Position numbers and translations under genes: made by a program. The notes below the pieces were generated by a model. The model made no database searches, was not told the origin of the DNA, and worked only from the letters and a program-made list of their open reading frames with translations. DNA of 64,000 nucleotides from Natrinema saccharevitans (lineage in GTDB: Archaea > Halobacteriota > Halobacteria > Halobacteriales > Natrialbaceae): assembly GCF_001953745.1 (NCBI RefSeq), contig NZ_LWLN01000001.1, forward strand, positions 2,356,001-2,420,000, written 5' to 3'. Positions 4,858-57,027 of the stretch are shown here, piece by piece. How positions within the stretch are numbered: position 1 is the stretch's first letter; each line of letters opens with the position of its first letter.

Positions 4858-6000
4858 TCAGGGCAGTTCGAACTCGATCGCCGCGCCCTGACCGAAGCCG
4901 ACACACTCCGTCGCGATGCCGCGGTCGACGCCTTCGCGGTTCATCTCGTGAATCAGCGTCACCGGTAGGCGCGCGCCGGAACAGCCAAGCGGATGGCCGA
5001 TGGCGATCGCGCCGCCGTTGACGTTGAGCCGGTCCATGGGAATCCCGAGTTCGCGCGCGGAGTAGAGCGTCTGGCTGGCGAAGGCCTCGTTGATCTCGAC
5101 CAGTCCGTAGTCGTCGATCTCGCGACCCGCGCGCTCGAGCAGCCCCTCCGTCGCGGGGACCGGGCCGACGCCCATGATCGTCGGGTCGACGCCGGCGACG
5201 TAGCTGGTGCCGACTTCGGCGAGGACCTCGAGGTCGTTCTCGTCGGCGAAGTCCCGGCTGGTCAGCATGACGCCGGCCGCGCCGTCGGCGATCTGGGAGG
5301 CGTTACCGGGCGTTACCGTGCCGTCCTCTTTGAACACCGTGGGCAGTTCGGCGAGCGTTTCCGGGGTCGTGCCGGGGCGGAGTCCCTCGTCCTCGTCGTG
5401 GACGCCGTCCTCGGTCTCGATGGGGACGATCTCGTCGTCGAACTTGCCTTCCTCGGTCGCTTCGACCGCGCGTTGCTGGCTGCGCGCGCCGTACTCGTCC
5501 TGTTCCTCGCGGCTGATGTCGAACTCCTCGGCGACCTTCTCGGCGGTCATCCCCATCTGGAGGTTCCGCATCCCGTACTCCTCGTCGAGTTTCGGATACA
5601 TGTCGCCGCTGTCGGCCGCGCCCATCTTCACGCGGCTCATGCTCTCGACGCCGCCGGCGATGACCGCCTGATGGCGGCCCGCAGCGATCGAGTCCGCGGC
5701 GCTGATGATTGCCTGCGCCGAGGAGGCACACTGGCGGTCGACCGTCGTCGCCGGGACCGACTCGCCAAGCTCGGAAAACAGTGCGATCTGGCGCGCGATG
5801 TTCGTCCGCTGCTCGGAACGTTGCTGGGCGCAGCCCCACATCAGATCGTCGACGTCGTCGCTCTCGATGCCGGTCTCGGCGAGCATCTCGTCGACTAGCG
5901 GAATCGAGAGGTCCTCGCTGCGAATGTCGGCGAGGGCCCCGTCTTCTTTCCCCTGTGCGGTCCTAACAGCGCTAACGATTACCGGTGTATTGCCTGACAT
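4858..6000 (-). CDS. Thiolase (acetyl-CoA acetyltransferase / 3-ketoacyl-CoA thiolase family)
   Basis: A 380-residue thiolase. The nucleophilic cysteine is in [12 protein letters not shown] (Cys91), the catalytic histidine in [16 protein letters not shown] and the second cysteine in [10 protein letters not shown] near the C terminus, so all catalytic residues are intact. It either condenses two acetyl-CoA or cleaves 3-ketoacyl-CoA; the sequence alone does not decide. No beta-oxidation or polyhydroxyalkanoate partners are adjacent. The start at 6000 is supported by a TATA box (6025-6032) about 28 nt upstream. The gene is monocistronic. Confidence 0.93.
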
Positions 6001-6024
6001 TGTATACCATCATTTTTGCCGGGG

Positions 6025-6032
6025 ATAAATAG
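6025..6032 (-). promoter_or_regulatory. TATA box of thiolase gene
   Basis: The minus strand reads ctatttatcc, centred 28 nt before the thiolase ATG at 6000, the spacing of a leaderless haloarchaeal transcript. Confidence 0.55.
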
Positions 6033-6075
6033 CTACCCTTGGCGGAAGATAACGTGGGTCTCGAGCCGTCGTCGG

Positions 6076-7371
6076 TTACGACCGTCGCTCGAGCGCGACG
6101 CCCAGATCCTCGAGCAACTCGAAGAACCCGGGGAACGAGACGTCGACGTGGTCGGCACCCTCGACGGTGGTCTCGCCGTCGGCCGCGAGGCCGGCCAGTG
6201 CCAGCGCCATGATGATCCGGTGGTCGTCGCGGCCCGAGACGGTCGCCCCCGAGAGCGTCGACTCGAAGCCGTGGATCGTCAGCGAGTCCCGCTCCTCGGA
6301 GGTTTCGACGCCCAGCTTGCCCAGTTCCTCGGCCATCGCGCTCACGCGATCGGTCTCCTTGTAGCGGACGTGTTCGGCGTTCGTAATCTTCGTGTCGCCG
6401 TCCGCGACCGCTCCCAGCGTCGCGATCGTCGGCAGGAGGTCGGGCGTGTCTTCGACGTCGACCTCGATCCCGGACAGGGGGGCCGCGGCGACGTCGATCG
6501 TCCCCGACTCGCGGTCCCAGTCCACGTCGGCACCCATCCGCTCGACGATCTCCACGATTGCGGTGTCGCCCTGGGCGCTGGGGTGTGCGCCCTCGATGCG
6601 GATCCCCTCGCCGTCGGCGGCGATCGCGCCCGCGGCCAGCGGGTACGAGATCGACGAGAAGTCGCCGGGGACGGCGTACTCCCCGCCCGTCGGCGCGTAG
6701 GACTGGCCGCCGTCGACGGCGAACCCGGCCTCGGTGTGGTGGGCATCGACCCCGAAGTCGTCGAGGACCTCGAGCGTGATGTCGACGTACGGCGCGGACT
6801 TCAGTTCCGTCTCGAGGTCGATCGCGATCCCCTCGTCGGTGACCGCGCCGGCCATCAGTAAGGCGGTGATGTACTGCGAGGAGACGTCGCCCGGGATCGA
6901 CACGTCGCCGCCCGATAGCGGGCCGGTGACGACCAGCGGGGCCTGCCCGTTCCCGCGGGTACTGTCGGCCGTCGCGCCGAGATCGGCCAGCCCCTCGAGC
7001 AGCGGCCCCTGAGGCCGCGACCGAAGCGAGTCGTCGCCGGTCAGGACCGTCGTTCCGTCGGCCAGCGCCGCGGCCGCGGTGACGAGTCGCATCGTCGTCC
7101 CGCTGTTCGCGCAGTCGACGACGTCGGCCGGCACGTCGGGACGACCGTCGAAGCCGTCGATCTCGAGACGGCCGTCGTCGCCCCGTTCTACGTCGCCGCC
7201 GAACAGACCGACCGCGCGGGCGGTCGCCCGCGTGTCGGCGCTCCAGAGCGCGTTGCGGACGGTCGCGCCGTCGGCGTACCCCGCCGCGAGGATCGCCCGG
7301 TGGGTGTAGCTCTTCGAGGGCGGTGCCCGCGCCGTGCCGGAGACGCTCGAGGGAGAGATTGTGACGTTCAT
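6076..7371 (-). CDS. aroA: 3-phosphoshikimate 1-carboxyvinyltransferase (EPSP synthase)
   Basis: EPSP synthase transfers the enolpyruvyl group of PEP to shikimate-3-phosphate, the sixth step of the shikimate pathway. The 431-residue protein has the substrate-binding motifs [11 protein letters not shown] near the N terminus, [24 protein letters not shown] and [13 protein letters not shown] in the second domain, and the normal length. The start is the ATG at 7371 ([10 protein letters not shown]); a GTG two codons upstream is an alternative. The product feeds chorismate synthase (2.1-3.2 kb). Confidence 0.96.
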
Positions 7372-7411
7372 GGTCACCCTGTGGCGTGGCCCCGTCTTAC
7401 CGATACCGATC

Positions 7412-8560
7412 TCACGAACAGCCGATCGAGGCCGTAATTTCGCGCAGCGGGTCGTCCGTGACCAAACTCGAGACCTCGTAGCTCACGTCGTCGCAGTTCC
7501 AGAAGAAACTCTTCACTCCGCCGTCCCGGTAGTAGGTCGTCTGCCCGTCGACGTCGATTGGCTCGAGGCTGTCGAGCGTCGGATCGAACCGCCCTTGCTC
7601 GCGGACGACGACGAAGAGTTCGCGGGCGACGACGTTCGGATCGTCGTACCACAGCGTCGTCGTGACGCCGCCGTACCGTTCTTTCCGTTCGACGACCGTG
7701 ATCCGATCCAGCACGTACGACCCCGGGAGATCGGGATCGGGAAGATCGTAGGGAACGGTGTCGGCGGCCGCGTCGCGGGAGCGGAAGATTCCCGCCGGTT
7801 TCGCGCCGTCGCTGACGACCTCGGCGTCGTCCGGGGGCTGGTAGGTGAACGTCTCCGGGTCGACGCCGTCGTCGATCGCGAGGTCCTCGTACGTGACCGT
7901 CTGGGCGTACAGCGTCTCGCCGTCGTCGCTGACCTCGTTGCGTTCCCTGATCGGGTGCCGCGTCTCGTCGTCGATCAAGAGCGTCCGAGAAACGTCCAAC
8001 TCCTCGAGTTTGTCGGCGCTCAACGGAACGCTGTAGGTCGTGTCCCCGACGACGAGGTCGATGGCGGTCCCCTCGTCCTCGAGTGGCGGTCGCGTCTCGA
8101 TGACGTGTGCCTCCCGCCCGCCGACCGTTTCCGTCCCGGCGTAGCCGAGTCGATATTTCTCGAGCAGAGCTTCGAACACCTGTAGCGTCCGATCGGTGTC
8201 GGTCTTGGTCCCGTGAAACTGGAGTTCCACGATCCCCGTCGACGGGTTGTACTCCCAGGTCTGCGCCCGGTTGGTCACGCTGACCGAGCCGGCGGGCACG
8301 TCGTCGTCGGTCGACTCGAGGACCTCGATGCGCTGTTTGGCCGGCGGTTCGCTGGCGAACCGTTCCGTCCGCGTGTCGGTTTCGTCCGGCGTCTCGATCG
8401 TCACCGACCGACGGGCCCGGAGAGTCGACATGTGGCGACGCGCGTCGATCGCGTCCCGAACGATTTCCGCGCCGGACGGGGACGCGTCGCTGCTCGGATA
8501 GCTGATACAGCCGGCGAGTGCAATCCCGGCCCCTGCCGCCAGGATCCGACGGCGGTTCAT
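7412..8560 (-). CDS. Tat-exported lipoprotein, LolA/outer-membrane-lipoprotein-sorting-like fold
   Basis: The 382-residue protein begins with a twin-arginine signal and lipobox ([10 protein letters not shown], then LAGC), so it should be exported folded and lipid-anchored outside the membrane. The body contains a repeated pattern of extended strands ([44 protein letters not shown]) that matches the LolA-like/COG2834 family of haloarchaea. The role is unknown; these proteins are thought to bind hydrophobic ligands (family knowledge). The frame is open far upstream, but that part overlaps the divergent peptidase gene; the ATG at 8560 at the signal peptide is the real start. Confidence 0.8.
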
Positions 8561-48857: not shown

Positions 48858-50210
48858 TCACCCGTGGCGGTTCTCGATGACGGCGTCCGGGGACCGATAC
48901 TCGTCGGAATGGCGGTGACAGTAGCTCTGGTGCCCGCCGTCGCTCGTGTCGTGATACGCCGGCGGTTCGTCGTCACAGACGCTGCCGAACGCCTCGTTGA
49001 AGACGGCGATCGCCTCTCCCTCGTCGTGGTCTCGAGCGAGAGTCGCGATTTCGTCCAGAACCGACTGGACGCGTGCCGGCACCTCCTGATCCCCGAACAG
49101 TTCGTCGTAGGTCTCCTCGACCGTCCCGAAGCGCGTGTCTTTCCCGACTGCCGCGCGGAGTCGATCGCGAACCGAGCGGTCCGCGCGCTGGCGCTCGCTG
49201 AGCAGGTCGCGGAGCGTGTTGAGCCGATTCCAGAGTTCGTCGTCGAGGTCGCGATACTCCGCCGGGCGGATTCGTGCCGGACAGCGCGTGCTGAACGGAC
49301 AGCCGGCGGGCGGGTATCGGGGATTCGGCGGCGTTCCGTGGAGCGTGATACGGTCGCGCTCGACGGTCGGATCCGGTTCCGGGATCGCCGACAACAGCGC
49401 GTGCGTATACGGGTTCGCCGGATCGGTGAACAGGTCCTCGGTCGGCCCGATCTCCATGATGTTCCCGAGGTACATCACCGCGACCCGATCACAGAGGTGG
49501 CGAACGACGGAGAGGTCGTGTGCGATAAACAGGTAGGTCAGCCCGAACTCGTTTTGCAGATCCTCGAGCAGGTTGATGATTTCGGCCTGCACCGAGACGT
49601 CGAGCGCCGAGACCGGTTCGTCGAGGACGACGAAATCCGGCTCGAGAGCCAGCGTGCGGGCGATACTGATCCGCTGGCGCTGGCCGCCGGAGAACTGGTG
49701 GGGATAGCGGTAGTAGTGTTCGCGCTGGAGGCCAACGGTATCGAGCAACTCTTTGACGCGCTGGCGACGCGCTTGCGGCGTCTCCCACTCGTGAACGTCC
49801 AGCGGCTCACGGACGATTTCGCCGATCGTCATTCGGTCGTTGAGGCTCGAGTCGGGGTCCTGAAACACCATCTGGGCGTTTCGCCGCCACTCGTGGAGAT
49901 CGTCGCCCTCGAGGGTCGTGATATCGACGCCGTCGAACCGGATCTCGCCGTCGGTCGCGTCCTCGAGTTGGAGGAGCGTTCGCCCCAGCGTCGTCTTGCC
50001 ACATCCGGACTCACCGACGAGACCGAGCGTCTCGCCACGGTGGATATCGAACGAGACACCGTCGACGGCCTTGACCGGCGTTCCACCGAGGAGGCCGCCG
50101 TCCTCGTAGTAGGTCTTCAGCCCCTCGACTTCGATCATCACGTCGCCGTCGCTGTCGGTCGGTACGTCGGTCTCGGTCGCTATCGGCTCCTGGCTCAGTT
50201 CGTGACTCAT
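48858..50210 (-). CDS. Peptide-type ABC importer, ATPase F (with an insertion in the C-terminal domain)
   Basis: A 450-residue ATPase of the OppF/DppF group. Walker A is GESGCGKTT, the Q-loop is [11 protein letters not shown], the signature [13 protein letters not shown], Walker [14 protein letters not shown] and the H-loop FIAHDLSVV. The peptide-transporter C-terminal domain begins with [12 protein letters not shown], is interrupted by ~95 charged residues ([20 protein letters not shown] and onwards), and resumes as [20 protein letters not shown]. The insertion, absent from bacterial OppF, is discussed in the findings. Its start overlaps the upstream ATPase by 4 nt. Confidence 0.93.
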
Positions 50211-51544
50211 TCGGTATCGCCTCCGGTCCGTCTCGCGTTTCGTCGTCGATGCTGGTCGACCGCCTCGTTCGTCGAGCGGTCGCCGGGGCAGAGCAAACAC
50301 GCCGCGGTGTGATCGTCGGTCCCCTCCTCGACCGAAACCGGGACGGGATGAACGGCGTCGCACTCGTCGAACGCCTTCGGACACCGCGGTGCGAACCGAC
50401 AGGACGTCGCCGGTTCGTTGGGTGTCGGGACGTTCCCTTCGATCGTCTGGAGCCGGTCACCGGATTGTTGTCCCGGGATCGACTGGAGCAGGCCACGCGT
50501 GTACGGATGCCTCGGATCCGCGAACAGTTCGTTTACGCCGGCCGTTTCGACGATTTCCCCGGCGTACATGACGTTTACTCTATCGGTGATCTCCGCGATC
50601 ACACCCATGTCGTGGGTGATAAACATCATCGAGAGGTCCCGCTCTGCCTGTAGCTCGGCGAGCAGGTCGAGGATCTGGGCCTGAATCGTCACGTCGAGTG
50701 CCGTCGTCGGCTCGTCGCAGATCAGCAACTCCGGTTCGCAGGCCAGTGCCATCGCGATCACGGCTCGCTGACGCATCCCGCCGGAGAACTGGTGTGGATA
50801 CTCGTTGATGCGGCGACGAGCGTCGGGGATGCCGACGGCCTCGAGCAGCTCGATCGCTTCCTGCGTCGCCGCCTCGCCCCGCAGTCCCTGGTGGAGCCGG
50901 ACCGACTCCTTGATCTGGTTGCCGACCGTGTAGACGGGATTGAGACTCGTCAGCGGGTCCTGGAACACCATCGCGATCCGTCCGCCGCGCATGAGTCGCC
51001 GCGGTTCGCCGCTGAGACGCGTGATCTCGACGAACCCGTCGGCGATCTCCGTCGGCGTATCGGGATTTCCGTCCGTGACGAACACGCAGTCGTCCTCGTC
51101 GACGAGACCGAGTTCGTCGCCGTAGCCGGCGGCGACGACGTCCGCAAGCGGCACGTCAGCGGCGCTCTCGTAGCCGAACGCCGCCGGCGTGATATCGACC
51201 GTCTCGCGGTCGAACAGGGCAACCGGGTCGTAGTCGGCCGCCACCGCCTCGAGGTCGACGGTACGATCCGGGAACTTCGAGGCGTACTCTCGAACCGTCT
51301 CGAGGTGGTTGAAGCGGACGCTACTGCCCTGGAGGGTTCGTCCCGGCGAGTCGACGAGACCCATGACCGACCGGGCGGTCACGCTCTTGCCCGATCCGCT
51401 CTCGCCGACGATGCCGACGGTTTCGCCCCGTCGGATGTCGAACGAGACCCCGTCGACCGCTCGGATCGTCTCCTTGTCGGTGAAAAACGCCGTCTGGAGG
51501 TTCCGAACGTCGAGGATGGGTTCGGCCGACGTCTCCGCCGACAT
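50207..51544 (-). CDS. Peptide-type ABC importer, ATPase D (with an insertion after Walker A)
   Basis: A 445-residue ATPase of the OppD/DppD group. Walker A is [13 protein letters not shown] and the Q-loop is [15 protein letters not shown], but about 90 extra residues lie between them (with [20 protein letters not shown] and [17 protein letters not shown]); the usual spacing is ~50. The signature [13 protein letters not shown], Walker [13 protein letters not shown] and the H-loop FITHDMGV follow, then the C-terminal [15 protein letters not shown]. It overlaps the next ATPase by 4 nt and abuts the permease gene at 51544. Confidence 0.93.
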
Positions 51545-53277
51545 TATCCACCACCTCCGGCGGCCGCGGTACCGGTGTCGTCGGTCCCGCCGGTATCAGC
51601 CTCCGGATCGATCGCGTCCCGGAGACCGTCACCTAGCGCGTTAAACGCGGTGACCACGAGGACGATCATCAGTCCCGGGATGGTCGCGACGTGCCACGAC
51701 GACGTGCCGACGAACGATCGCCCGTCGTTGATGAGTCGTCCCCACTCGGGAGTCGATCCTTCGATACCCAGACCGAGGAACGAGAGCGCGGCCGTGGAGA
51801 TGATGATTCCACCGAGCAGGAGAGAGCCGTAGATCATTATATACCCTGCAATGTACGGGGCCATGTGTTTACGCATTGTGTTCACCGGTGACTGTCCGTA
51901 GCTCCGTGCGGCGTCGACCCACTCCTCTTCGGCGACCTGTAACGACGGGCCGCGGATCGTCCGCCACATCCCCGGCCAGTAGACGAACGCGAAGATCAGC
52001 CCGAGGAGAAGCCCGCCGTTGAGCGGTTCCGCGATCGGATGGTTCCCCTGATTGAAGATGACCGATAACATCATCACGAGCAGAAATGCCGGGATCGAGA
52101 TGATCGTGTCGCTCGTGATCACTGTCAGGACGTCGACGATCCCCTTGTAGTAGGCGGTCAGCATCGACATCGTGACCGCGATCAGTCCACCGAGACCGAT
52201 CGCGAGCAGCCCGATCACCAGCGACGTCTGCGCGCCGTAGGCGATATGGGTGAGCAGGTTCTGTCCGGACGATGTCGTTCCCAACGGTGCCCAGCGGTCG
52301 TAGTCGTCGTAACTCATCGGACCGATAGTGTTTTGCCCGTTCGATTGGCTGTTGAGGTTCGCCTGCCCGGGCGTGGTCGTCGCGACTTCGCCGTCGTCGT
52401 TGAGGTACTCGATCTCGTACTCGTAGGGAGAGGCGATGTTCTGGTCCGCCGTGGTGGGGCTGACGGCCGGTGCCCACAACGCCGTGACGATGAACATGAG
52501 TACGACGATCAGCCCGAACAGTCCCCAGTAGTGGGTTCGGAATCGACGGAGCGTGTCGTCGCGCGGCGTCCAGTCCGCCTGCCGGTAGTGATCCCGAAAG
52601 AGCGTGTACCCTTTCCAGGTCCAGACGATCACGGTGAGAGCGTAGGCGTAGACGAGCAACGTCCGAATCCCCCACGCCACTGCCGGCGAGAGGCCGAGGA
52701 ACGTCCCGCCCCAGCCGCCGCCGGGCGTTCTGTGGCCCTGATTGGAGATGACTTCGCGGCTCGTGAGCGTCGGAATCGACGACAGGGTGTTGAACACGCC
52801 GTCGATCGCGCCGTTGACGAGTCCGCCGACCGGCGTGAACGCAAACAGAACCGCGATCGTGGCCAGGACGGCGGTCAGGACGGCCCGCTCGAGGAATCGG
52901 ACGAGACGATCGCTCAAACCGACATCGAGCCGGTCCGCGGCGGACCGGGACGTGAATCTGGTGAGGAGAACGGAGATTCCGAACAACAAGAGCAGCGTGA
53001 TCGCGTCGCTCACGAAGTAGCTGAGTATCGGAACGGTCGCCTCGCCGACCGAGTCGCCGATCCAGCTGGGTATCAACCCTACCAGACCGATGACGTACTT
53101 GATTGCCCCCACGAGCTGCTGGGCCCAGCCCATGTATCGGCCGAACTCGAGGGCGACCAATACGACGGTACCGAGCAGCCAGAACCGCGCCGGCCCGGGA
53201 TTGTCGGCGACGCGTTCGCGGAGGGACCTCGATTCGTCTGTCGTCTCGTTCGGTTCGAATGACTCACTCACACTCAT
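51544..53277 (-). CDS. Peptide-type ABC importer, permease C with long N-terminal extension
   Basis: A 577-residue permease; bacterial DppC proteins have ~300. The C-terminal ~270 residues are the usual part, with the permease EAA-loop EEEWVDAARSYGQSPVNTMR and the segments after it. The N-terminal ~230 residues add about five membrane helices (for example FWLLGTVVLVALEFGRY and ILSYFVSDAITLLLLFGIS). It shares one base with the ATPase D start and overlaps permease B by 4 nt. Confidence 0.93.
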   Translation of the reverse strand: MSVSESFEPNETTDESRSLRERVADNPGPARFWLLGTVVLVALEFGRYMGWAQQLVGAIKYVIGLVGLIPSWIGDSVGEATVPILSYFVSDAITLLLLFGISVLLTRFTSRSAADRLDVGLSDRLVRFLERAVLTAVLATIAVLFAFTPVGGLVNGAIDGVFNTLSSIPTLTSREVISNQGHRTPGGGWGGTFLGLSPAVAWGIRTLLVYAYALTVIVWTWKGYTLFRDHYRQADWTPRDDTLRRFRTHYWGLFGLIVVLMFIVTALWAPAVSPTTADQNIASPYEYEIEYLNDDGEVATTTPGQANLNSQSNGQNTIGPMSYDDYDRWAPLGTTSSGQNLLTHIAYGAQTSLVIGLLAIGLGGLIAVTMSMLTAYYKGIVDVLTVITSDTIISIPAFLLVMMLSVIFNQGNHPIAEPLNGGLLLGLIFAFVYWPGMWRTIRGPSLQVAEEEWVDAARSYGQSPVNTMRKHMAPYIAGYIMIYGSLLLGGIIISTAALSFLGLGIEGSTPEWGRLINDGRSFVGTSSWHVATIPGLMIVLVVTAFNALGDGLRDAIDPEADTGGTDDTGTAAAGGGG

Positions 53278-54442: not shown

Positions 54443-56266
54443 TTAGGACTCGTCTTCCAGGTTCGCCTGCCAGTCGAGGTAGTAGCCGGTCGCTTCGTTC
54501 GGCATCTTCGACGTGTCGGTGTTCTTCGGCTCGAAGCCGAAGTGGCCGTACGCGACGTCCGGCCAACTCCAGATCCAGCCGAGCGAGTACATCTCGAGGT
54601 CGCCGTCCTCACCGCGGTCCTGGAGCGTCGAGAACTCCGTCGTCGTGGTATCGAGTTCGATGCCGACCCCGGAGAGCCTGCGCGCGAGTTCGTCGGCCAT
54701 GTCCTGGAACGCCGGACTCGTCTTGTAGACGGTCGCTTCCATCTCGAACGGGTCGTCCTCGGTGAAGCCGGCCTCCTCGAGGACCTCCGTCGCTCCGTCG
54801 CGGTCCATCTCGTTGACGCCGTAGGGCCACTCGTCGACCCAGTCCTGATAGCCGTCCCGTCCGGTCGGCCACATCGCCGGCGGCGTGAAGCTAAATGCCT
54901 CGAAGCCGCGGTTCTGGAGGATGTCGTTGACGAACTCCTCGTGGTTCGTGACGTACGCGACGGCCTTACGGACTGGTGCGGGGACGTTCGTGACGTTGAA
55001 CGCGAAATAGTACGTGCCGAGTTCGGGGACCGCGAGGTAGTTCGTGGTCTCGCCGTTCTCGAACTCCCCGTACGTACCGAACTCCCGGCCGTTGTCGTCG
55101 GTCTCGGCGTCGATGAGGTCGGCGTCGTAGTACGAGGTCGGAATCTCGAAGAAGTCGGCGTTCTTCTCCATCGCGTAGGTGAACTTCGATTCGGGGTCCT
55201 CGTTGATCTCCCAGTGGATGGATTCGACGCTCGCGACGGTCCCGTAGAAGTCGTCGTTGCGGACGAGCCGTACACTTTCGCCGGGGCTGAACTCGTCGTA
55301 CTCGAACGGACCGGTCCCGTTGGCCATCTCGGTCCGGAACTCGTCGTGACTGACCTCGCCGTCGTACCCTTCGACATCGCCGACGATGCCCTCCGGAACG
55401 ATGGAGAATCCAGTGTGAGTGAGAACGTCTAGGACGGCCGGGTTCGGCTCTTGAAGGGTGATCTCGACCGTGAGCTCGTCGACGACGTCGATCGCCAACG
55501 AGTCGGGGACGATACCACCGTCGTCGGTCGTCTCGTGGTCGATACCGAGGCCGCTCGTCGAACTGGTAACGAAGTTCGACCGTTCGCTGAATTCGGATTC
55601 GGCGAGCCGGCGGAACGAGTACTTGACGTCGTCGGCGGTCAGGTCCGTCCCGTCGTGGAACTGGATGCCGTCTTTGAGCGTGAAGGTCCACGTCTGCCCG
55701 TCGTCGGACGTCTCGAAGGACTCGAGCAGCTGGTTCTCGACCTCGGCGACGCCGGCCGGATAGTTGGTCAGCGTGTCGTAGAGCTGGACGATGACCTCGC
55801 CGGACGCGGTGTCCGTCGACATGATCGGGTCCAGTTCGTCGAAGGAAGCGCTGATCAGGTTCAGTTCCGAATCGCCCTCGACTTCGGTCCGGTTGTGTTT
55901 GACGTGGTGGCGACCGAGGGCACCGACCCGGGGGAGGTCGACGTTGTCGTACCAGAAGAACTCGCCCTTGCTGTGGTACATCGGGAGCATGACCATGTCG
56001 TCCCGGGCGGCTTCTTCGATCTCGATGTACGCCTCGGTACGCGTGTCTTCCGCGTCGGGACCCGGGTTGTCTACGATACGCTCCCAGGCGTCCTGTGCTT
56101 TCTCGGCGTGTTCAGTCGTCTCGAAGTCAGTTTCCTCTTCTTCTTCCTCGTCCTCGCTGAGGAGGGCCGAACACCCAGCGAGTCCGACCGATGCGCTGCC
56201 GCCGAGCAGAGCAAGCATTTGCCGTCGCGATCGATCTACATTCGGTACATCCGGTATGTCGGACAT
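54443..56266 (-). CDS. Peptide-type ABC importer, substrate-binding lipoprotein (apparently circularly permuted)
   Basis: A 607-residue SBP_bac_5 protein anchored through a Tat signal and lipobox (RSRRQMLALLGGS, then GLAGCS with Cys32). An acidic linker (DEEEEEETDF) follows. Residues ~55-130 (AWERIVDNPGP, EAYIEIEEAARDDMVMLP, FFWYDNVDLPRVGALG) match what is the C-terminal segment in ordinary family members. Only then comes the usual N-terminal start at ~133 (ELNLISASFDELDPIMSTD), and the protein ends at ATGYYLDWQANLEDES, where ordinary members continue into that segment. Start ATG 56266 is favoured by the TATA box at 56291. Confidence 0.85.
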   Translation of the reverse strand: MSDIPDVPNVDRSRRQMLALLGGSASVGLAGCSALLSEDEEEEEETDFETTEHAEKAQDAWERIVDNPGPDAEDTRTEAYIEIEEAARDDMVMLPMYHSKGEFFWYDNVDLPRVGALGRHHVKHNRTEVEGDSELNLISASFDELDPIMSTDTASGEVIVQLYDTLTNYPAGVAEVENQLLESFETSDDGQTWTFTLKDGIQFHDGTDLTADDVKYSFRRLAESEFSERSNFVTSSTSGLGIDHETTDDGGIVPDSLAIDVVDELTVEITLQEPNPAVLDVLTHTGFSIVPEGIVGDVEGYDGEVSHDEFRTEMANGTGPFEYDEFSPGESVRLVRNDDFYGTVASVESIHWEINEDPESKFTYAMEKNADFFEIPTSYYDADLIDAETDDNGREFGTYGEFENGETTNYLAVPELGTYYFAFNVTNVPAPVRKAVAYVTNHEEFVNDILQNRGFEAFSFTPPAMWPTGRDGYQDWVDEWPYGVNEMDRDGATEVLEEAGFTEDDPFEMEATVYKTSPAFQDMADELARRLSGVGIELDTTTTEFSTLQDRGEDGDLEMYSLGWIWSWPDVAYGHFGFEPKNTDTSKMPNEATGYYLDWQANLEDES

Positions 56267-56290
56267 AAACATGGGTTACCAATACAATCA

Positions 56291-56457: not shown

Positions 56458-57027
56458 TCAGTCGTCGCCTTCTTCGTCGATAATGACGACTTCGCCGTCG
56501 ACGACGTCGACGTTGATTAGCGTCTTGACGTCGTAGCCCGCGTCGTCGACCTTGTTCTCGCCGCCGACCTTCTTGATGACCGCGACCGTGTCGATGACCT
56601 CCGCCCCGATCTCGTCGAGGGCGTCCAGCACCGCCGCGAGGGTCCCGCCAGTCGAGAGAACGTCGTCGAGAACCAGCACCCGCTCACCCTCCCGGACGTC
56701 GTTGATGTACATCTCGTTCTCCGAGTAACCGGTCTTCTGGGAAATCGCGACCTCGTCGTCGAGGCCGTACTGTCGCTTGCGAATTACGGTCAGCGGGATG
56801 TCGGTCATCAGCGAGACCGCGGTGGAGATGTGAATGCCCATCGCCGCCGGGGTGACGATCCGGTCGACTTCCTCGAGCTGGGCCTTCCGGATGATCCGGA
56901 TGACGATCTCGCGTAGCAAGGTCGGGTCGAGCTTGGGGAGTCCGTCACTGATCGGATGGACGAAGTAGTGATAGCCGTTCTTCTCGATGATCGGGGCCTC
57001 GAGCAGGGACTGCTTGAGTTGATCCAT
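56458..57027 (-). CDS. hpt: Hypoxanthine/guanine phosphoribosyltransferase
   Basis: A 189-residue purine-salvage enzyme that transfers ribose-phosphate from PRPP to hypoxanthine or guanine. The PRPP-binding loop is [13 protein letters not shown]; the N-terminal hood and the [20 protein letters not shown] strand region match archaeal Hpt-type enzymes. The length is normal. It is separated from the importer by 190 bp. Confidence 0.92.

Follow-up and report, generated by a model that had tools for sequence, protein, structure and literature searches.

Does a solute-binding lipoprotein of an archaeal ABC importer carry, directly behind its lipid anchor, the segment that closes the chain in its relatives? 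This question is raised by a gene in the 64,000-nucleotide stretch of the Natrinema saccharevitans genome analyzed here (hereafter the window), for which a sequence-only reading had proposed a circularly permuted member of family 5 (SBP_bac_5), with the former C-terminal part moved to the N-terminus. The open reading frame behind that proposal is confirmed on the minus strand with its stop at 54443, and the start assigned to it, 56266, is a second ATG in the same frame, two codons downstream of the one at 56272 (Table 1). All the motifs that had been named are present, namely RSRRQML, LAGC, the acidic linker, AWERIVDNPGP, EAYIEIEEAARDDMVMLP, FFWYDNVDLPRVGALG, ELNLISASFDELDP and ATGYYLDWQANLEDES. 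The leader reads as a twin-arginine signal and a lipobox (RSRRQMLALLGGSASVGLAGC) followed by the acidic linker, and the position of the anchor ahead of the former C-terminal part can be taken directly from the window sequence, as had been claimed. The block EHAEKAQDAWERIVDNPGPDAEDTRTEAYIEIEEAARDDMVMLPMYHSKGEFFWYDNVDLPRVGALGRHHVKHNRTEVE lies within residues 52-132; next comes ELNLISASFDELDP, at residue 136, from which the protein runs on to GYYLDWQANLEDES, and the chain ends with ATGYYLDWQANLEDES. From the Tat motif and the lipobox, the protein is predicted to be exported and lipidated on Cys34.

Table 1. The permuted gene, the parts of its product and the other genes of its operon, in window positions
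Feature	Position	Strand	Remarks
Gene for the circularly permuted family-5 solute-binding protein, a predicted lipoprotein	54443..56272	-	609 aa; ATG 56272, alternative ATG 56266
Residues 1-34: Tat signal RSRRQML and lipobox LAGC, predicted anchor Cys34	56171..56272	-	from the sequence; leader type matches ordinary-order relatives
Residues 35-51: acidic linker	56120..56170	-	from the sequence
Residues 52-132: former C-terminal block (C)	55877..56119	-	at the C-terminus of 35 family members of ordinary order
Residues 133-478: block M1, ordinary N-terminal part	54839..55876	-	PF00496 match from 177
Residues 479-604: block M2; new C-terminus after GYYLDWQAN	54461..54838	-	N-terminal in type B (L128-L136)
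Residues 605-609 (LEDES): short acidic new tail	54446..54460	-	~80 residues of ordinary members missing at this end
Permease, DppB/OppB-type, 342 aa	53274..54302	-	operon of the permuted gene
Permease, DppC/OppC-type, 577 aa, long N-terminal extension	51544..53277	-	operon of the permuted gene
ATPase, DppD/OppD-type	50207..51544	-	operon of the permuted gene
ATPase, DppF/OppF-type	48858..50210	-	start placed at the ATG that overlaps the stop codon of dppD; longest ORF from 50384

When the window protein was used as a TBLASTN query in 125 genomes of the family, the matches were of two kinds, either colinear over residues 3-608 or in two pieces, with residues 132-604 followed by residues 51-132. 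The two-piece arrangement is found in G112, G012, G119, G083, G081, G080 and other genomes, and the C-block matches in these relatives have E values of about 1e-25 to 1e-15 and 44-53% identity. For example, on the minus strand of G112 the main part (1151158-1152564) comes ahead of the C-block (1150915-1151160; 52% identity, E = 1.9e-25). Among the 63 proteins extracted from the family, 28 are permuted and 35 are ordinary, and such regularity far exceeds chance. With genomes of the order and two other families added to those of the family, 129 distinct haloarchaeal proteins were scored for the order of the blocks C, M1 and M2 (limits in window numbering in Table 1). The ordinary order M1-M2-C is shown by 63 proteins and M2-C-M1 (type B) by 9, and this survey of Halobacteria finds the order of the window protein, C-M1-M2 (window type), in 57 of the 129; none of the three noncyclic orders was seen among the scored proteins. 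The main part and block C give concordant trees when analyzed separately, both following one gene lineage. The permutation proposed earlier is borne out by these relatives, which carry the same blocks in the ordinary order and in the same operon, and the window protein, the binding component of an opp/dpp-type ABC importer, is very probably a family-5 solute-binding protein that has undergone natural circular permutation.

A search of 393 genomes sampled from the phylum, at a threshold of E = 1e-80, added nothing outside the haloarchaeal order searched. The peptide-pattern scan of contigs gave only three distant bacteria, in which BLAST matched the main part and not the C-block; viral contigs gave no match to the window protein and, when searched with a profile, three copies of one bacterial protein. 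Plasmid records include Halorussus and other relatives of 41-43% identity, with the best matches split in two pieces. Two broken ordinary-order copies were also observed: in L056 (6343-6921, minus strand, G048) just the C-terminal part is left, with stops around it, and in L073 (5818-6960, minus strand, G041) a stop codon splits the gene.

Both junctions can be placed exactly. The ordinary chain reads through its joint as GYYLDWH-EADSDAAQQAQDAWE, whereas the window protein ends there with GYYLDWQANLEDES and a stop and begins with the linker and EHAEKAQDAWE. In the permuted proteins, the cut lies between GYYLDWQ, which is followed by a short acidic tail, and HAxKAQxAWE behind the lipobox linker. 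In ordinary proteins the old ends read YNNVTLDE before the stop and DNELNLINSTM; their fusion in the window protein is HNRTEVE-GDS-ELNLIS, where about 3 residues separate the old C-terminus from the old N-terminus. A few permuted proteins (L087, L091, L031 and L120) bear a longer joint, e.g., DTSSDQKSENVL, which is similar to the linker GDGENVL ahead of ordinary proteins (L040) and suggests a remnant of the old leader linker. The rearrangement would have started from an in-frame fusion of tandem copies, or an equivalent event, with the internal signal and linker lost.

Permuted proteins are also found outside the window's clade. L098 (5763-7739, minus strand, G364), whose genus is represented by one genome only in the sample, has the window's block order, yet in the tree it groups with proteins of the ordinary order, and a constraint that moves it into the window's clade lowers the log-likelihood by 197 units (p-AU = 4.2e-95). 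The type B proteins (L128-L136; nine loci in families f4, f5 and f12, e.g., L130 at 5701-7557 on the minus strand) are cut at window residue ~478/479, between PGGxxxYxxHWQG followed by the stop and YPYGxNExxxxxARxVMEEAGYG. In Pfam they match PF00496 in two stretches, with profile positions 1-259 on residues 315-614, and the protein tree supports them as a single clade (SH-aLRT 99). Of 293 genomes of the order, 20 contain a full-length colinear match to a type B query. Because L098 is excluded from the window's clade, the protein phylogeny indicates at least three independent permutations in haloarchaeal family-5 proteins (the window's clade, L098 and type B), at two cut sites. In L136 (G544), the basal type B locus, the neighboring DppB groups with that of the ordinary-order operon L103, away from the other type B operons, and operon mixing is possible at this locus.

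Within the window's own clade, chances are about even that the permuted order was gained more than once (or reverted) and is thus a recurrent state, which is compatible with the permutation itself. The protein tree nests ordinary-order L037 (G112), L112 (G172) and L124-L126 inside the permuted clade, and for L037, L112 and L124 this nesting recurs in the tree of the neighboring permease DppB; however, monophyly of all permuted proteins of the window's clade is not rejected (p-AU = 0.061), and the branches are short. The spacing from W to AW at the ordinary joint is 13 residues in most ordinary proteins and likewise in L037, L112 and L125. This ancestral spacing argues against a reversion to the ordinary order in these three and favors a retained one, so that the joint spacing leans towards repeated gain. 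L124 is ambiguous in this respect, with a spacing of 15 residues and a tail motif that resembles those of permuted proteins.

In OppA, domain I comprises residues 1-44, 189-269 and 487-517, domain II residues 45-188 and domain III residues 270-486 (PMC6305025), and the same domain arrangement is given for AliD (PMC11192437). By these published limits both ordinary ends lie in domain I, in agreement with the sequence-only reading, which had placed the termini in one lobe; they are therefore plausibly joinable. By alignment to OppA, the cut sites fall at ~450 in the window type and at ~330 in type B, both in domain III and farther from its limits than the probable error of the alignment, and block C corresponds by homology to the end of domain III, the hinge and the last part of domain I. 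Because both new termini are in domain III and the old ones in lobe 1, the lipid anchor probably shifts from lobe 1 to lobe 2, and the crossings between the lobes would stay at two in the window-type protein. Since the two ordinary ends are neighbors in domain I, the fused chain would fold into the usual two-lobed protein, which would be exported folded by the Tat pathway and then lipidated on Cys34. With its new ends in a surface loop of domain III, it would be tethered on lobe 2 rather than on lobe 1, and it would bind its solute and deliver it to DppBCDF as usual. AlphaFold gave poor models both for the window protein alone (pLDDT 37.2, pTM 0.22) and with four distant relatives (5 rows; pLDDT 47.8, pTM 0.45), and the top Foldseek matches of the weak 5-row model are OppA/MppA-type at TM ~0.4, which is no test of topology.

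The Tat pathway exports folded proteins. A Tat-like leader is present in nearly all proteins of all three block orders, and Tat export may loosen the constraint on chain order here. The relocation might be neutral and leave function unchanged, any surface-loop cut being tolerated in a Tat-exported, flexibly tethered protein; our judgment on this is equally divided, and it too is compatible with the permutation. Operon, leader type and sequence conservation are alike in both orders, and both forms occur in different species of genus g24 (G112 vs. G110, G111, G113, G114 and G117). However, the window's clade, L098 and type B all put their termini in domain III and not in domain I or II, although selection can hardly be read from so small a number of events (three, at two sites). 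It is possible, but rather doubtful, that the shared outcome of these repeated permutations (at least three and possibly six or more events, with all three cyclic orders used), an anchor on lobe 2 in place of lobe 1, is under selection for its effect on the opening, closing or docking of the tethered protein at its permease.

The displaced block could also complete a neighboring molecule, with domain-swapped dimers or chains of molecules at the membrane as the result. Such an exchange is suggested by pneumococcal AliC, a peptide-binding relative that crystallized as a lobe-swapped dimer (PMC11192437), and by the shortness of the fused junction; nevertheless, the ordinary termini share OppA domain I, so that closing on the protein's own chain needs no long linker, and we consider swapping quite unlikely.

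It is still less probable that residues 52-132 represent an added domain, or one borrowed from elsewhere, ahead of a complete family-5 protein. PF00496 matches the window protein at residues 177-575 (E = 1.3e-66, 225.7 bits, cut-off 32.4), and of the two parts for which separate profile searches had been suggested, only this main one is recognized by Pfam; residues 50-135 have no match above cut-off, which could speak for an extra domain. This silence is uninformative, however, because the PF00496 model ("Middle") omits the C-terminal block in ordinary members too, e.g., the match in L038 ends at 526 of 632. In close relatives the same block (44-60% identity) is the C-terminus, and it is missing from the C-terminus of the window protein, by which the extra-domain explanation is refuted; no copy of block C at both ends was flagged among the scored relatives, and in the tree of block C alone it falls with the remainder of its own gene. 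In the alignment, the chains of three unrelated bacterial family-5 members continue for ~80 residues beyond the end of the window protein. Solved DppA/OppA relatives align from window residue ~130-150 and are themselves covered mostly only to ~405-450 of their 505-545 residues, leaving 80-100 residues of the solved chains without counterpart at the window protein's C-terminus. The block C profile alone found no solved family-5 structure in the PDB, and HHalign placed block C against six bacterial OppA-type C-termini in the expected register, weakly (P = 0.0022). The link of block C to the bacterial C-terminus runs via the ordinary-order haloarchaeal relatives. The permuted order could scarcely be an assembly or annotation artefact, as it is shared by dozens of independently sequenced genomes in single open frames (56 permuted genes across many genomes, complete ones included, in the window's clade).

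The permuted gene is the first of an opp/dpp-type importer and is followed by homologs of dppB, dppC, dppD and dppF. Most family matches to the DppC-type permease begin only near residue 330, which leaves it a long N-terminal extension. Where enough flanking sequence is available, dppBCDF follow in the same order in most loci of all three types (ordinary, window type and type B), with a few exceptions. Given this conserved context, the window gene is best read as that of the usual binding lipoprotein in a five-component importer, except that its chain is permuted. As in SBP_bac_5, there are the family-model match, a lipoprotein leader (by sequence), two permeases and two ATPases; the chain order is not the ordinary one, and the protein is filed as a permuted variant homologous over all blocks. 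The window protein scores 81.2 bits against the curated equivalog model NF043070 (DppA), below its cut-off of 1005.

In OppA/DppA the peptide amine is bound by an Asp, which is D419 in OppA and, in the numbering of PMC12136057, D436 in DppA. In 53 of 56 permuted proteins of the window's clade it is replaced by Ser in the motif GWIWSW, so that the ligand of this clade may be other than an ordinary free peptide. Ser is also found at this position in the ordinary-order sisters of the permuted clade, and Asp is kept in most far relatives, in eight of nine type B proteins and in L098, which argues that the loss of Asp is independent of permutation. Directly upstream on the same strand (56458-57027, minus) lies an archaeal hypoxanthine/guanine phosphoribosyltransferase gene (NF040646 above cut-off), and such a gene adjoins the permuted gene in many members of the family and in L077, from another family; this neighbor hints at a possible purine-related ligand. 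A different arrangement is seen in L090 (4364-7288, plus strand, G301), a 975-aa fusion of a Ser/Thr-kinase-like N-terminus, a hydrophobic stretch and a permuted family-5 binding protein. Its kinase-like part scores below cut-off with PF00069 and has a PknB-type match at 6e-18, and the fusion looks like a receptor kinase.

Natural circular permutation of transport-binding proteins is rarely documented, and the one clear case that we found is TpMglB-2 (Tp0684) of Treponema pallidum. No published permuted family-5 protein was found in the open-access literature, with subscription papers and preprints outside the scope of the search; circular permutation is already known in sugar-binding proteins, and what is new here, as far as that literature shows, is family 5. 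Orthologous ordinary and permuted forms coexist in one genus and operon context, which makes a natural experiment on chain order. The haloarchaeal permutants also bear on where a Venus-flytrap protein carries its lipid tether, and on whether export in the folded state (Tat) relieves proteins of the N-to-C order. Moreover, colinear profiles miss ~80 residues, so that permuted proteins resemble members whose N-terminus is odd and whose C-terminus is truncated, and they are easily misread in annotation.

Like OppA, DppA, MppA and NikA of cluster C, the window protein has a PF00496 match, a lipoprotein leader and a two-permease, two-ATPase operon; unlike OppA and DppA, it bears the C-terminal block at the N-terminus, its predicted anchor and new ends in domain III, and Ser in place of the peptide-amine Asp. 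Its ordinary-order orthologs (L034, L038, L042, and L037 in genus g24) share the operon and the blocks, with ~52-56% identity in the main part, but keep the ordinary block order with the anchor ahead of block M1. Type B shares the family, the Tat lipoprotein leader and the dppBCDF operon, and differs in cut site and in its M2-C-M1 order. TpMglB-2, a solved circularly permuted glucose-binding lipoprotein designated "Type Ic / Cluster Bc" (PMC4990184), is likewise the natural product of circular permutation in a lipid-anchored solute-binding protein, the anchor being predicted in our case. The window protein falls outside Type Ic / Cluster Bc, as both the family and the direction of permutation differ: TpMglB-2 is bacterial and of the Type I / cluster B sugar-binding fold, its N-terminal strands have been transferred to the C-terminus and the hinge is crossed an extra time, whereas the window protein is archaeal, belongs to cluster C and has its C-terminal block moved to the N-terminus, with no extra crossing expected. 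Tethering was also raised by the authors of TpMglB-2 as a possible cause of its permutation (PMC4990184).
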